Part shown: positions 14,193 through 62,914 of the stretch, one piece after another
Position numbering within the stretch: the first letter of the stretch is position 1
How the letters are laid out: every line of letters begins with the position of its first letter
Assembly (NCBI GenBank): GCA_003388505.1
Contig: QQVO01000004.1
Span: 62,001 to 126,000, forward strand
DNA length: 64,000 nucleotides
Source: Planctomycetota bacterium
GTDB taxonomy: Bacteria; Planctomycetota; Planctomycetia; Planctomycetales; Planctomycetaceae
Direction of reading: 5' to 3'
Program-made: the position numbers and the translations under genes
The notes under the pieces: model-generated
Databases searched by the model: none
Seen by the model: the letters and a program-made list of their open reading frames with translations, nothing else
Told to the model about the DNA's origin: nothing

Positions 14193-15440
14193 ATGCCGCA
14201 GGAATTGCCCGTATTGAGTGACGAACAGGTTCGGTCCTGGATTGCCCAGAATGTTCGGACCGAAGACTTCACGGGGCGGCGGACGCTGCTCATCGTTCCC
14301 GATCACACGCGAACCGCGCCGCTGCCGCTGCTGTTCGATGCGCTGTTTCAGCAACTCAGGCCGGTCGTCGCGTCGCTGGACGTTATGTTTGCGCTCGGAA
14401 CTCACCCGCCGCTCTCTGAATCCCGGATGTGCAGGTTGCTGGGGATTTCTCCCGAGGAAAGGGGACGCCTGTTTTACCAGACGGAGCTCCTCAACCACGA
14501 ATGGGACAATCCCGAAAGTTTGCACACCCTGGGAGTGCTCACCCGTGAGGAGACGCTTGAAATCTCAGGCGGTTTGCTGGAGGTCGATGTTCCGGTTCGC
14601 ATCAACAAGCGGGTTCTCGACTACGACTCGCTGCTTGTCCTAGGGCCGGTCTTTCCGCATGAGGTCGTGGGATTCTCGGGCGGAAACAAATACTTCTTCC
14701 CCGGTATTTCCGGCCCTGAACTGCTCAATTTCTTCCACTGGCTCGGCGCGCTGATCACGAACGTGGGGATCATCGGCGTCAAGGACACGCCGGTTCGGCG
14801 GGTCGTCGACCGCGCGGCTCGGATGATTCCGACCGAGCGGAAGGCCGTGACATTTGTCGTGACGCCGGACGGGTCAGCCCGCCTGCACGGCCTGTTTTAC
14901 GGGTCGCCGGAAGAGGCCTGGAACGGCGCCGCTGACCTTTCAGGCCGTGCGCACATCGAGCAGAAGGCGCGGCCGTTTCATACGGTGCTGTCCTGCGCTC
15001 CGCCGATGTACGATGAGTTGTGGGTTGCGGGAAAATGCATGTACAAGCTCGAGCCGGTCGTGGCCGACGGGGGAGAACTGATTATCTATGCTCCGCACAT
15101 GGAAGTGATTTCGGTGACGCACGGCCGGTTAATCGCAGAGATCGGCTATCATTGCCGCGACTACTTCACGAAGCAGTGGGACCGCTTCAAGGACTATCCG
15201 TGGGGTGTGCTTGCTCACTCCACCCACGTGCGGGGCGGCGGGACTTTCGAAGGCGGTGTTGAGAATTGCCGCGTGCGAGTCACACTGGCGAGTGCCGTTC
15301 CGCCGGAAGTCTGCGAGAAGATCAATCTGGGTTATCGTGATCCGGATTCGATTGACCCCGAGGACTACGCAGACAGGGAAGAGGAAGGGATTTTGCTGGT
15401 GCGAAAAGCCGGCGAGCAGTTGTATCGCCTGATCGACTGA
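14193..15440 (+). CDS. LarA-like (DUF2088) nickel-pincer racemase-family protein
   Basis: The 415-residue protein keeps LarA-type motifs: IVPDHTRTAP (substrate-site D-x-T-R), LGTHPPL (catalytic His of the GTH motif) and FPHEVVGFSGGNKYFFPG, which aligns with LarA's H-x-x-x-G-F-S-G-G-x-K-x-x-P-G segment. That segment's Lys holds the nickel-pincer cofactor. LarA enzymes racemise or epimerise 2-hydroxyacids such as lactate or malate. The cofactor needs LarB, LarC and LarE, none of which is in this window, and the substrate cannot be read from sequence. A 101-bp repeat copy begins 32 bp after the stop. Confidence 0.75.
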   Translation: MPQELPVLSDEQVRSWIAQNVRTEDFTGRRTLLIVPDHTRTAPLPLLFDALFQQLRPVVASLDVMFALGTHPPLSESRMCRLLGISPEERGRLFYQTELLNHEWDNPESLHTLGVLTREETLEISGGLLEVDVPVRINKRVLDYDSLLVLGPVFPHEVVGFSGGNKYFFPGISGPELLNFFHWLGALITNVGIIGVKDTPVRRVVDRAARMIPTERKAVTFVVTPDGSARLHGLFYGSPEEAWNGAADLSGRAHIEQKARPFHTVLSCAPPMYDELWVAGKCMYKLEPVVADGGELIIYAPHMEVISVTHGRLIAEIGYHCRDYFTKQWDRFKDYPWGVLAHSTHVRGGGTFEGGVENCRVRVTLASAVPPEVCEKINLGYRDPDSIDPEDYADREEEGILLVRKAGEQLYRLID

Positions 15441-15472: not shown

Positions 15473-15573
15473 TAGAGCAAATTGCTCTACCATGTGTCCG
15501 CGTCGAGCGGTGTTCGGACTGTCGTGGACGAAAATCCGCGAGACAGATCGCCAACACTGATTTGCAAAGCGCT
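15473..15573. repeat. 101-bp dispersed repeat, copy 1
   Basis: It starts with a perfect 8+1+8 palindrome (TAGAGCAA, A, TTGCTCTA) and ends with TTTGCAAAGCGCT. I count 3 mismatches against copy 2 (16403-16503) and about 21 against copy 3 (56753-56853), with no length change. It lies 32 bp downstream of the LarA-like gene and 31 bp upstream of the phosphatase gene. Confidence 0.9.
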
Positions 15574-15604
15574 AAAACGTTCGCAACGACCAATGGGATC
15601 TTGC

Positions 15605-16405
15605 ATGCCGGCGGATACGACGGAATTGAAGCAGCGTCTTGAATTCGCCCTTGCGGCCGCGCGGGAGGCTTCGACGCTGATCCTGCCTTACTACAACAAC
15701 CCCGATCTGGCGGTGGAGTTGAAGGGGGACGAGTCTCCGGTGACGGCGGCCGACCGGGGCGCCGAAGAACTGTTGCGCAAGCTGATTGCGGAGGAGTATC
15801 CGGCTGACGGGATTCTCGGTGAGGAATTCGGGGAGCGCGAGGGGACTTCAGGGTATCGGTGGATTCTTGACCCGATCGATGGCACCGTGTCGTTCGTGCA
15901 TGGTGTGCCGCTGTTCGGAACACTGATCGGTCTGGAACAGGCGGGCGAGGCGAAGCTGGGAGTCTGCCGGATGCCGGCGCTGGACGAGACGGTCTACGCA
16001 GCATCGGGTTGCGGCGCCTGGTGGCAGACGGGCGGGGCCGATCCGCGGCCGGCCCGCGTGAGCGACACGGACCGGCTCGATCGGGCGCTGTTCTCTTATA
16101 CGGCGCTCGAGTTATTCGCCGAGTACCACCGCCGATCGGCCTTCGACGCCCTTATGGATTCGGTCGCGTCGAGCCGCGCGTGGGGCGACTGTTACGGACA
16201 CATTCTGGTGGCGACGGGCCGTGCAGACCTGATGGTTGATCCGGTGATGAACGCTTGGGACGCGGCGCCTTTGTTGCCGATCCTGCGGGAAGCCGGCGGA
16301 TCGTTTGTCGACTGGACCGGGTCCGAGACGATTTACGGCGGCAACGGCATCTCGGTGAACGCCAGGCTTCGCGATGCTGTGGTGGAGGTCGTCACGCGCG
16401 ATTAG
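15605..16405 (+). CDS. Inositol-monophosphatase-family phosphatase (possibly histidinol-phosphatase HisN)
   Basis: The 266-residue protein has the Li-sensitive phosphatase signature: GDESPVTAADRGAEELLR (first metal-binding region), GEEFGE, the core DPIDGTVSFVHGVP, and the second metal motif AWDAAPLLPILREAGG. These Mg2+-dependent enzymes dephosphorylate inositol phosphate, histidinol phosphate or PAP. The pattern DPIDGTxSFVHGVPLFGTLI resembles HisN-type enzymes more than SuhB. No histidine biosynthesis genes are adjacent. ATG 15605 is chosen; ATG 15593 is also in frame. The gene is bracketed by two copies of a 101-bp repeat, and its TAG stop is the first triplet of the downstream copy. Confidence 0.85.
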   Translation: MPADTTELKQRLEFALAAAREASTLILPYYNNPDLAVELKGDESPVTAADRGAEELLRKLIAEEYPADGILGEEFGEREGTSGYRWILDPIDGTVSFVHGVPLFGTLIGLEQAGEAKLGVCRMPALDETVYAASGCGAWWQTGGADPRPARVSDTDRLDRALFSYTALELFAEYHRRSAFDALMDSVASSRAWGDCYGHILVATGRADLMVDPVMNAWDAAPLLPILREAGGSFVDWTGSETIYGGNGISVNARLRDAVVEVVTRD

Positions 16406-16503
16406 AGCAAATTGCTCTACCATGTGTCCGCGTCGAGCGGTGTTTGGACTGTCGAGGACGAGAATCCGCGAGACAGATCGCCAACACTGATTTGCAAAGC
16501 GCT
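16403..16503. repeat. 101-bp dispersed repeat, copy 2
   Basis: It differs from copy 1 at three positions over 101 bp. Its first three bases, TAG, are the stop codon of the phosphatase gene, so the repeat abuts or overlaps the coding sequence exactly. Same orientation as copy 1, 930 bp away. Confidence 0.9.
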
Positions 16504-16659
16504 ATAGCGGCGCGGTGTGCGACGACTGCGGCCCGCGCTGTGGTGCCGGCGAATCGGCCTCTTGCCGGGATTATCGGCCGGATGTATCCTGAAAGCGGGG
16601 GCGGAGTCCCTCATTGGAACGGGGTCGGCAGACTTTTGGCTCATCCCGGCTGAATAGAC

Positions 16660-56752: not shown

Positions 56753-56853
56753 CAGAGCAAATCGCTCTGCTATGTGTCCGCGCCGAGCGGTTTTCGGACT
56801 GTCGAACCCGAGATTCCGCGAGTCGGATCGTCGACGTTCGTTCGCAAAGCGCT
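56753..56853. repeat. 101-bp dispersed repeat, copy 3
   Basis: It aligns without gaps to copies 1 and 2 with about 21 differences. The 5' palindrome is kept, with the outermost pair changed from T-A to C-G, a compensatory change. The 3' end (GCAAAGCGCT) runs directly into CTA, which is the TAG stop codon of the minus-strand CLC gene. Confidence 0.82.
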
Positions 56854-58740
56854 CTACCGCGAGGGGACTGACGTGCGCTCGTCCGCCCGCTGGTGCGAAT
56901 CGGCCTCCTGCTGAAACGCCATCAGGCGGCGATTGTACGATGCGATCACCTCCTTGTGCCGCAGGGTTCCCAAGAGACGCGATGGATCTTCGGCGTCGAC
57001 GACCGGCAGTTCATCAATGGCGACGGTTGTAAAGGCCCGCAACGCTGTGTTGAGATCGTCCTCCGGCGTCACCGAGACCACGTTGGACGTCATCACATCA
57101 CGCGCCACTGCCAACTTCCAGATCGTTTCGTCATAGAGATATCCACGGACGTCGTCGCCGGAGAAGATGCCGATCATCCGGCCCCGCTCGTCAACGACGG
57201 GGAAATAGTGCTGCTGCGTTTCCGCGAGGATATGTACGATGCCTTCCAGCGGCGTTGCCTCCGGGACGCGAGTCACCGCGCGGCTCTGGTCGTAGACGTC
57301 TCCCACGCGCATGCCCTCCAGCACGTCGACGAGAAAGTCTCCGCGATGAGCGGGCGATTCCAGCCGGCTGGGAACCTGTTGCGAGTAGAGTTGTGCGCGG
57401 CGCCCCATCACAAAGCAGAGTGTGGAGACCCACATCGTTGGCAAAAGCAGCCCGTAACCGCCGGTCATCTCCGAGACCATGATAATCGTCGAGAAGGGCG
57501 CGTTCGCGCATCCGGAAAAGAACCCCGCCATGCCGACGATTCCGAACGCTTCCGGATGCGTCACCACGTCCGGCCAGAGTGAGTGGAAGAACAGGCCGAC
57601 GGCGGAGCCAACGCATCCTCCGATGACCATCGACGGACCGAACACGCCGCCGGAACCGCCCGAACCGATGGTGAGCGACGTTGTAACGATCTTCGCCAGC
57701 GCGACGGTCAACAGCAACGGGACGCCGAGTTGTCCGGCGTGAATCAACGCCTCCTGGAGCGTTCCGTATCCCGTCGACAGGACGGCCAGCACGCGACGGT
57801 CGGAGTCGAAGAGGTAGAACAGCCAGACGGCGACGAGTCCGGTGAGTCCGGCGCCAATGGCGGGTCGCACGGCCGGAGGCACGGGCAATTTCTTGAACAG
57901 CGTGTGCACGCCGTAGAAGAGCTTGACGTACAGGATGCCGACGACGACGAGCACGAGCGCCAACGCCGCGTAGGGAAAGAGTTCCAGCGGCGTGACGATT
58001 CCCAGCGTGCTCAGTTCTTCTCCAAAGAGGGGGGCGAAGCGGACCGATTCCGGAAGGAACAGGCAGTAAACGCTGTAGCCGATGATCGACGATGAGGCGG
58101 CCGGGATGATGACGTCCGCTTCCAGATCCGCCTCGCTGTACAGAATCTCTGCGGAAAAGAGCGCCCCGGCGAGCGGCGCGCGGAAGATGGCGCCCACGCC
58201 GGCCCCGACACCGGCGGCCAGCAGGATTCGCCGGTCCCGCACCGGCAGTTTCAGGATCGTCGCCAGATACGATCCGAACGCGCCGCCGATTTGTGCGATC
58301 GGCCCTTCCCGGCCGCCCGAACCACCGGTTCCCAGTGTAATCGCCGAAGCCAGCATCTTGATGATCGGTATTCTGCCCCGGATCGCGCCGCGTTTGTTGT
58401 GGTAGGCGTCAATTGCGGCGTCGGTTCCGTGGCCTTCCGCCTCGGGAGCGAGTGTGAAAACAAGCAGTCCCGATGCAAGACCGCCGGCCACAAGCACGAG
58501 TACGATTCTCCATGGACTCAGTTCGCCCGCCGCGTGCTCGTACACGGAATGCTCGCCCGCGGCGTCGCCCGGGGAATACCCGGCGAACGCGACAAGCGTA
58601 TATTCCACAACGGTCTGCCCGATGAGCTGAAAGACAATCGCCCCGAGACCGGCAATGATCCCGACCAGGATCGAAAGCAGCACCCACTTCCCGGACGCCC
58701 TCCAGTCCAGAAAGTCCATCAACTTCTCAACGAACGACAC
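56854..58740 (-). CDS. CLC-type chloride channel/antiporter with C-terminal CBS pair
   Basis: The 628-residue protein carries the CLC signatures GSGGREGPIAQIGGAFGSYL (gating Glu in GREGP) and GSGGSGGVFGPSMVIGG. The first selectivity motif, GSGIP in E. coli ClcA, reads EAEGHGTDAAI here, a variant known from a bacterial CLC subclass. Residues ~470-610 hold two CBS domains (VARDVMTSNVVSVTPEDDLN and DELPVVDAEDPSRLLGTLRH), which often bind adenine nucleotides. It should move Cl- or another anion across the inner membrane. The TAG stop abuts copy 3 of the 101-bp repeat. Confidence 0.92.
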   Translation of the reverse strand: MSFVEKLMDFLDWRASGKWVLLSILVGIIAGLGAIVFQLIGQTVVEYTLVAFAGYSPGDAAGEHSVYEHAAGELSPWRIVLVLVAGGLASGLLVFTLAPEAEGHGTDAAIDAYHNKRGAIRGRIPIIKMLASAITLGTGGSGGREGPIAQIGGAFGSYLATILKLPVRDRRILLAAGVGAGVGAIFRAPLAGALFSAEILYSEADLEADVIIPAASSSIIGYSVYCLFLPESVRFAPLFGEELSTLGIVTPLELFPYAALALVLVVVGILYVKLFYGVHTLFKKLPVPPAVRPAIGAGLTGLVAVWLFYLFDSDRRVLAVLSTGYGTLQEALIHAGQLGVPLLLTVALAKIVTTSLTIGSGGSGGVFGPSMVIGGCVGSAVGLFFHSLWPDVVTHPEAFGIVGMAGFFSGCANAPFSTIIMVSEMTGGYGLLLPTMWVSTLCFVMGRRAQLYSQQVPSRLESPAHRGDFLVDVLEGMRVGDVYDQSRAVTRVPEATPLEGIVHILAETQQHYFPVVDERGRMIGIFSGDDVRGYLYDETIWKLAVARDVMTSNVVSVTPEDDLNTALRAFTTVAIDELPVVDAEDPSRLLGTLRHKEVIASYNRRLMAFQQEADSHQRADERTSVPSR

Positions 58741-62797: not shown

Positions 62798-62914
62798 GGG
62801 GAGTGAAAGGCTATCTCCCGTGCGGTGAGGCCGTATGAACCGGGTCAGGCGGGAAACCGAGCAGCCCTAAGTACCGTGCTTTCAGGTGTGCGTGGAGATA
62901 GCCTTTCACTCCCT
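62798..62914 (+). ncRNA. ffs: Signal recognition particle RNA, small bacterial (4.5S) type
   Basis: The ~117-nt RNA folds into one long hairpin. The ends (62799-62818 and 62894-62913) form a 20-bp perfect helix. The apex has the SRP domain IV signature: GGGT, CAGG, CGG, tetraloop GAAA, CCG, AGCA, GCCC (62842-62866). This is the symmetric internal loop bound by Ffh, with a GNRA tetraloop. It is the RNA partner of Ffh/FtsY in co-translational protein targeting. A 17-bp-spaced promoter fits the 5' end. No clear terminator follows. Confidence 0.9.

Follow-up and report, generated by a model that had tools for sequence, protein, structure and literature searches.

The 64,000-nucleotide stretch of planctomycete DNA analysed here (the window) carries three gap-free copies of a short repeat, two of which share a triplet with the stop codon of an adjoining gene. 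This arrangement raises the question of whether the repeat is a mobile element targeted to stop codons or a structured 3'-UTR element, the two readings put forward in the original prediction. The three copies are clearly above chance, as their core pattern matches the window three times compared with 0.05 times in shuffled sequences. A covariance model returned the same three copies as its only full-length strong matches; of two weak rows, neither of them a copy, one (E 0.04) is the palindrome read on the opposite strand and the other has E 0.23. The unit had been described as 101 bp long. We revise this length to 104 bp because the covariance-model matches span 104 bp, consisting of 100 bp flanked by a TA on each side.

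Copy 1 (15473..15576, plus strand) is full length, has AA instead of TA as its right dinucleotide and starts 32 bp past the stop of a Lar_N-domain gene (14193-15440), exactly as predicted, upstream of a phosphatase gene. It differs from copy 2 at 3 of 101 positions (4 of 104 over the full unit), in agreement with the predicted number. Copy 2 (16403..16506, plus strand) is also full length, is identical to the family consensus and has TA at both ends. Its first triplet (16403..16405, plus strand), composed of the target TA and the first element base G, is the TAG stop of the inositol-monophosphatase-family gene called at 15605-16405, as had been stated. Covariation supports two hairpins on the plus strand: H1 (TAGAGCA-AAT-TGCTCTA, 16403..16419), which overlaps the left terminal repeat, and the internal hairpin P2, with a 5' arm at 16425..16432 (TGTCCGCG) and a slowly varying 3' arm at 16467..16475 (CGCG-A-GACA, with a bulged A). 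The right terminal repeat (16494..16506, plus strand) resembles IS630 ends and reads TATAGCGCTTTGC on the minus strand, or TAGAGCGC in copies of the GCTCTA type. Copy 3 (56753..56856, plus strand), full length, belongs to an older sequence type with a GCTCTA right end and is more diverged, as expected from the prediction (77% identity to copy 1 over 108 nt). The change of its outermost hairpin pair from T-A to C-G was seen again, and copy 3 begins with CAG rather than with the TAGAGC start ascribed to the repeat. The right end of copy 3 forms the minus-strand TAG stop (56854..56856) of a CLC gene (56854-58740, minus strand), again as predicted; its left end does not lie at a gene 3' end, and the proposed 3'-end location holds on one side only. 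The window also contains a bacterial small SRP RNA at 62809-62906 (Rfam RF00169, 53 bits).

The window's genome (G000, 6.78 Mb) contains many further copies. The core pattern, with up to three mismatches, occurs at 179 places (96 and 83 on the two strands) and the reversed pattern at none. A 103-bp DNA query yielded 209 initial candidates; 40 of these were scored, and at least 41 matches were listed. We examined 109 distinct copies together with their flanks and recognized the right end in 98; this set was drawn from places with 0-1 core mismatches and thus under-represents more diverged copies. Two groups of identical sequences (four and two copies) were found among the 98, with unrelated flanks, in line with the predicted mobility. 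The repeat is a short (104 bp), dispersed and non-coding element without a transposase of its own, as is characteristic of MITEs. Gene calls came from a simple script that relied on codon usage learned from the window, and its errors carry over into the neighbour and stop counts. By these calls, the 109 copies are flanked by a gene 3' end and a gene 5' end (39), two 5' ends (29), two 3' ends (22) or a 5' end and a 3' end (14), with four incomplete cases and one intragenic copy, showing that intragenic insertions are nearly absent. As 29 of the 109 copies have a gene start on either side, the idea that all copies sit at gene 3' ends does not extend to the genome.

The borders of the copies define the insertion site. 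The left flank in G000 is Y in 95 of 109 copies, followed by TAGAGC, and the right end is GCTATA in 45 of 98 copies, GCTATC in 10 and GCTCTA in 8, with A (69/98) or G (17) as the next base. The left TA is present in 86 of 109 copies, most changes affecting its outer base, and the right TA in 72 of 98. The target in G000 is described as TA in a YTAR-like context, while that in genome G004 is CTAG-like (left C in 70/112, right G in 50/85), a context known for IS630. Terminal inverted repeats (left TAGAGC, right GCTCTA) are found in G004 (40/85 exact) and in old G000 copies, and are imperfect in most G000 copies, which carry GCTATA (45/98).

A doubling of the target TA can be read directly from another dispersed G000 repeat, GCGCTCCCCTGCGGGTCGCGGCTA plus AACGG (GCGCTCCCCTGCGGGTCGCGGCTAAACGG), which is present at 122 places (first 24 bases, up to three mismatches). 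Five copies interrupt the GCGCTCCCCTGCGGGTCGCGGCTA repeat, converting GGC-TA-AAC into GGC-TA-core-TA-AAC with a core of 100 bp. Four of these insertions are in one orientation and one is in the other, and a sixth case is degenerate. These doubled TAs, together with the identical copies at unrelated loci, bear out the mobile-element part of the original prediction. About a quarter of G000 copies lack the last A of the right TA, a loss more frequent than changes of the left TA, and an IS200/IS605-like insertion without target duplication was considered on this ground; the ends in G004 and the two orientations in the host repeat weakened this candidate. The GCGCTCCCCTGCGGGTCGCGGCTAAACGG repeat, exemplified by L080-L106 near position 1501, is absent from the window and serves as an insertion target; in L003, its TAA apparently had been the stop of a gene. 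A third repeated sequence, CCCGGATTATTCATGACGAGGGCCC, lies to the right of the element in L036 and L047 and follows the GCGCTCCCCTGCGGGTCGCGGCTAAACGG repeat in L099.

The genome-wide search and tabulation of stop distances, which the original prediction had called for, revealed an enrichment of left ends at stop codons. The first triplet of the element is the stop of the upstream gene in 32 of 109 copies (31 TAG and one TAA), and one further copy lies at offset -4 from a stop. Intergenic TAs weighted by target context predict 5.6% of left ends exactly at stops (p 4e-15), and a local null, restricted to TAs within the stop or the following 200 nt, predicts 22% compared with the observed 32/60 (p 1e-7); the left-end excess in G000 is thus larger than expected from TA insertion. 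In 26 of 28 stop insertions, the right TA is followed by A or G, and therefore the codon struck was TAA or TAG. No such excess was seen for right ends in G000 (4/28 compared with 23% expected). Three of these four are exact cases with a recognized right end, all of the GCTCTA type, giving TAG on the opposite strand, and the fourth, identified by position, is copy 3 of the window. Exact right-end stops thus occur in 3 of 8 GCTCTA copies and in 0 of 45 GCTATA copies (Fisher p 0.0024, calculated by hand); a further two copies, of the GCTATA type, overlap a stop at offset -5, in a different frame. In G004, 12 of 40 left ends coincide with stops (17% expected, p 0.03), as do 9 of 35 right ends (21% expected, p 0.29), the right end there being most often GCTCTA (40/85). 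Both ends, each bearing TAGAGC, hence meet stops in G004 (12 and 9), whereas the left end dominates in G000 (32 vs 4), where GCTATA is the usual right end.

The two genomes, one with a single stop-making end and the other with two, amount to a natural test of whether insertions are selected once they have occurred. Stops are met by the ends able to restore them and not by the end that lacks this ability, a pattern that suggests selection acting on completed insertions rather than targeting of stops; TA insertion followed by selection therefore accounts for most of the association. The claim of stop-codon targeting consequently survives in part: left ends do coincide with stops beyond the TA expectation, but the target is TA in a YTAR/CTAG-like context and the excess in G000 is confined to the end that recreates the stop. 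The link with stop codons is real but probably secondary. The phosphatase gene ending in copy 2 is consistent in length with its relatives. The nearest orthologues at the window-copy loci are about 60% identical in protein; none of 21 orthologous phosphatase loci contained the element (E <= 0.1), and the protein ends of the 14 orthologues measured lie -3 to +16 residues from that of the window, 13 of them within -3 to +8.

The element is patchily distributed among relatives. The sequence pattern matched 15 of 397 genomes of the class, convincingly only in G000, G004, G307 and G050; the single or few two-mismatch matches in the other eleven genomes proved on reading not to be full elements. With strict filters, the covariance model detected the element in 25 of 170 genomes of the family and in 13 of 58 genera, with at least 23 matches in nine of the 25, one each in G388 and G013 and two in G047. 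Among the matches listed, lengths are about 99-106 bp, and all but one cover the whole model. Searches of Rfam and of plasmid and phage collections gave no match to the element.

Both hairpins covary among these relatives, as found with the covariance model that the original prediction had proposed to build. In an alignment of 51 sequences from five genomes, 93.5% of the cells in H1 and P2 form standard pairs, compared with 89.7% after shuffling and 27-49% when the structure was slid, and 36 cells are doubly changed compared with 12.7 after shuffling. The number of pairs with double changes (5 vs 3.5; 44/500) and that of pair types (18 vs 16.1; 60/500) are less telling. An alignment of 30 family matches, fitted to the model and inclined towards its structure, has 59 doubly changed cells compared with 22, and a covariation of 0.324 compared with 0.106. 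Genera differ in H1, some having TAGAGCA/TGCTCTA and others CAGCGTA/TACGCTG, and the P2 pair 25:78 occurs as G-C, C-G and U-A. A longer hairpin in G004 is weakly supported, with 5-16 of 500 shuffles scoring as high as the real alignment and one slid structure giving double-change counts at least as large. Covariation of the helices is thus observed across relatives, and its causes may lie at the DNA level.

P2 also evolves slowly within genomes. Its 3' arm, which formed no part of the patterns by which copies were collected (except in the full-length DNA search), varies 2.5-4 times less than neighbouring columns: 1.4% vs 5.2% in G000 (p 3e-4) and 3.5% vs 14% in G004 (p 7e-5), both tested column-wise. 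The difference persists in copies with up to eight differences (1.5% vs 3.7%, p 0.009, in G000; 2.3% vs 8.2%, p 0.007, in G004), and for C/G columns alone p is 0.015 and 0.12, respectively. Changes confined to a single copy are not depleted in P2, a test made weak by recurrent mutation. Variant sharing among the 90 least diverged G000 copies (32 pairs vs 33 permuted) suggests that their variants arose after insertion, and the full copy sets of G000 and G004 show subfamilies; the constraint on P2 may accordingly reflect selection either after insertion or among source copies. No signal of a particular strand was detected. G-U does not exceed A-C in paired cells (17 vs 18 in G000, 22 vs 20 in G004), and the element has no orientation bias between tandem genes either in G000 (16 vs 14, stop insertions set aside) or in G004 (29 vs 31, stop insertions included). 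These strand results, together with the 29 of 109 copies between gene starts, speak against the structured 3'-UTR element that had been suggested.

The ends of the element point to a candidate mobilizer. G000 has four DDE_3 matches, and the two proteins tested belong to the IS630 family by NF033545. One IS630 element is 1085 bp long with TAGAGCGCTCTGCA at both ends, and a second has one end reading TAGAGCGCTTCGCAGAACAG. The consensus right end shares 20, 18 and 21 of 27 bases with three G000 IS630 ends and, beyond TAGAGC, 15, 13 and 16 of 21 (shuffle p <5e-5, 2.5e-4 and <5e-5), whereas the left end matches them weakly (15-16 of 27, p 0.026-0.052). IS630 ends starting with TAGAGC are also found in G059, G307, G388 and G008, of which G008 has no element match in the family survey. 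The IS630 copies of G000 are damaged, being frameshifted or incomplete. IS630 (E <= 1e-10) does not co-occur with the element, since it was detected in 18 of 25 element-bearing and 18 of 25 element-free genomes; this sample of 50 out of 170 family genomes comprised all 25 with the element and 25 of the 145 without it. No IS630 match was obtained in G004, a complete genome that has 263 pattern places and two copies at unrelated loci sharing 99% identity; its mobilizer may have been lost or may be of another kind. At the loci around Y1 and IS630 genes, no insertion sequence bounded by two whole element ends was found.

Several other insertions were noted around these genes. In L113 (G000:C17, around 1356-2130), the left border of a copy (CTAG) coincides exactly with another insertion of IS630 type, whose TAGTGGTC / TAGTGGTCTG ends differ from those of the element. 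At L111 (1382-2669, at the end of G000:C9), at least two IS630-type fragments are piled up in different frames, which may reflect nested insertions or an assembly effect. G388 has 29 IS630 matches and a single element match; one of its loci, L359, carries an IS630 of about 1.03 kb whose ends, TAGAGCATTTTCAGAGTTGG and TAGAGCACTTTTGG, resemble the right ends of the element in G004 and G307. The ten Y1 transposase matches of G000 (L070-L079) include several that are flanked by their own inverted or direct repeats (e.g., L070 1314-1342/1915-1943), and other REP-like families probably exist in this genome.

We consider it probable that the repeat is a non-autonomous MITE of IS630/Tc1-mariner type that is mobilized in trans, inserts at TA and works like the pneumococcal RUP. 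Judging from the similarity of the ends, a transposase acting in trans would recognize GAGC...TTGC on the left and, inverted, (T)AGCGCTTTGC or GAGCGCTTTGC on the right. The 100-bp core would then enter a TA in a YTAR/CTAG-like context and leave a TA on each side, as the doubled TA in the host repeat illustrates. When the TA of a TAA or TAG is struck, insertion would be tolerated because the first element base, G, restores TAG and the protein keeps its end. Selection of this kind would help to explain how a compact genome tolerates about 200 insertions: a TA-seeking element whose first base rebuilds the stop would be harmless on TAA and TAG.

A plain MITE, however, leaves the conserved P2 hairpin unexplained. 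The interiors of MITEs are usually thought to be free to drift; an interior hairpin that covaries and varies little implies that either transposition needs the hairpin or the inserted copies are not inert. Covariation and low variation suggest that P2 is probably needed for mobilization or for retention after insertion. More tentatively, we envisage a long-lived mobile element of near-fixed length whose internal hairpin is itself selected, for transposition or for a function of inserted copies, and could act as extruded DNA or as RNA. Such an element, of MITE size, would have a structural code of its own, maintained by compensatory change over at least 13 genera while the sequence drifts.

Other mobilizers and modes of insertion are less consistent with the data. 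Movement of a TA-specific element by a non-IS630 transposase would account for the 263 pattern places and the near-identical pair of copies in G004, where no IS630 match was obtained, and for the equal frequency of IS630 in genomes with and without the element, but we regard it as unlikely given the IS630-like right end in G000, the doubled TA and the TAGAGC-ended IS630 in several family genomes. Active targeting of stop codons or gene 3' ends by the transposition machinery is quite unlikely: the local left-end excess in G000 (32/60 vs 22%, p 1e-7) is what targeting would produce, but the right end of the same element shows none, the excess in G004 is slight or absent (12/40 vs 17%; 9/35 vs 21%), 29 of 109 copies are flanked by gene starts on both sides, and the end variant that makes no stop is absent from exact stop positions.

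A structured RNA (a 3'-UTR hairpin, terminator or small RNA) that serves the host and is selected in place would fit the covariation across genera, the low variation of the P2 arm and the independence of variants in the 90 least diverged copies. It is nevertheless very unlikely, as neither strand has a G-U excess, orientation is unbiased with copies between divergent genes, Rfam gave no match and presence is patchy (25/170 family genomes). An origin as a REP/REPIN-like element linked to a REP-associated tyrosine (Y1) transposase was raised by the minus-strand left end, GTAG-AGCAATTTGCT-CTA, which has the look of GTAG plus a palindrome; G000 has ten Y1 transposase genes, and GTAG REPs are reported, in the accessible part of PMC3733652, to supply TAG stops. 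We rejected this origin as highly improbable: GTAG is not conserved (present in 4 of the 30 aligned family sequences), neither the element nor its ends occur at any of the ten Y1 loci (with about 1.5 kb on each side), and a 104-bp unit with a doubled TA differs from the 20-40 bp of REPs.

The MITE reading has precedents in other bacteria. RUP of the pneumococcus is 107 bp long, has about 100 intergenic copies, inserts at TA, has ends like those of a co-resident IS630 and was proposed to be moved by IS630-Spn1 (accessible part of PMC2229807). Compared by this published description, the planctomycete element resembles RUP in size, intergenic location, IS630-like ends and TA insertion. RUP has stops in all six frames and no structural signature reported there, whereas the element described here has one frame open in its consensus and two hairpins that covary over 13 genera. 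Correia/NEMIS and ERIC are likewise short repeats with TA termini that form hairpin RNA, but they have other hosts and sequences, and the parts of PMC2229807 and PMC10969869 consulted do not mention compensatory conservation of an inner hairpin between genera; neither 'stop codon' nor 'planctomycet' occurs in the portion of PMC10969869 covered. A supply of stop codons by repeats is also known. BOX of the pneumococcus encodes the stop of 36 annotated genes without clear truncation (PMC3049150, in part), but it is modular, has a proposed link to ISSpn2 and provides a stop that is not tied to a TA target, and the fusion of a MITE to a gene end, accompanied by a premature stop, has been described (PMC6382973, in part). 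GTAG REPs, whose termini often give TAG stops and which are reported in Planctomycetes (PMC3733652, in part), share with the present element a palindrome beside GTAG in the minus-strand left end; they are 20-40 bp long and Y1-linked, whereas the repeat studied here lacks a conserved GTAG and has no adjacent Y1 gene. Our literature search, which covered few subscription papers and is weak evidence, returned no description of this planctomycete family. Similar elements are thus known in other bacteria, and what looks unusual here is the combination of a near-fixed length and a conserved hairpin across many planctomycete genera.
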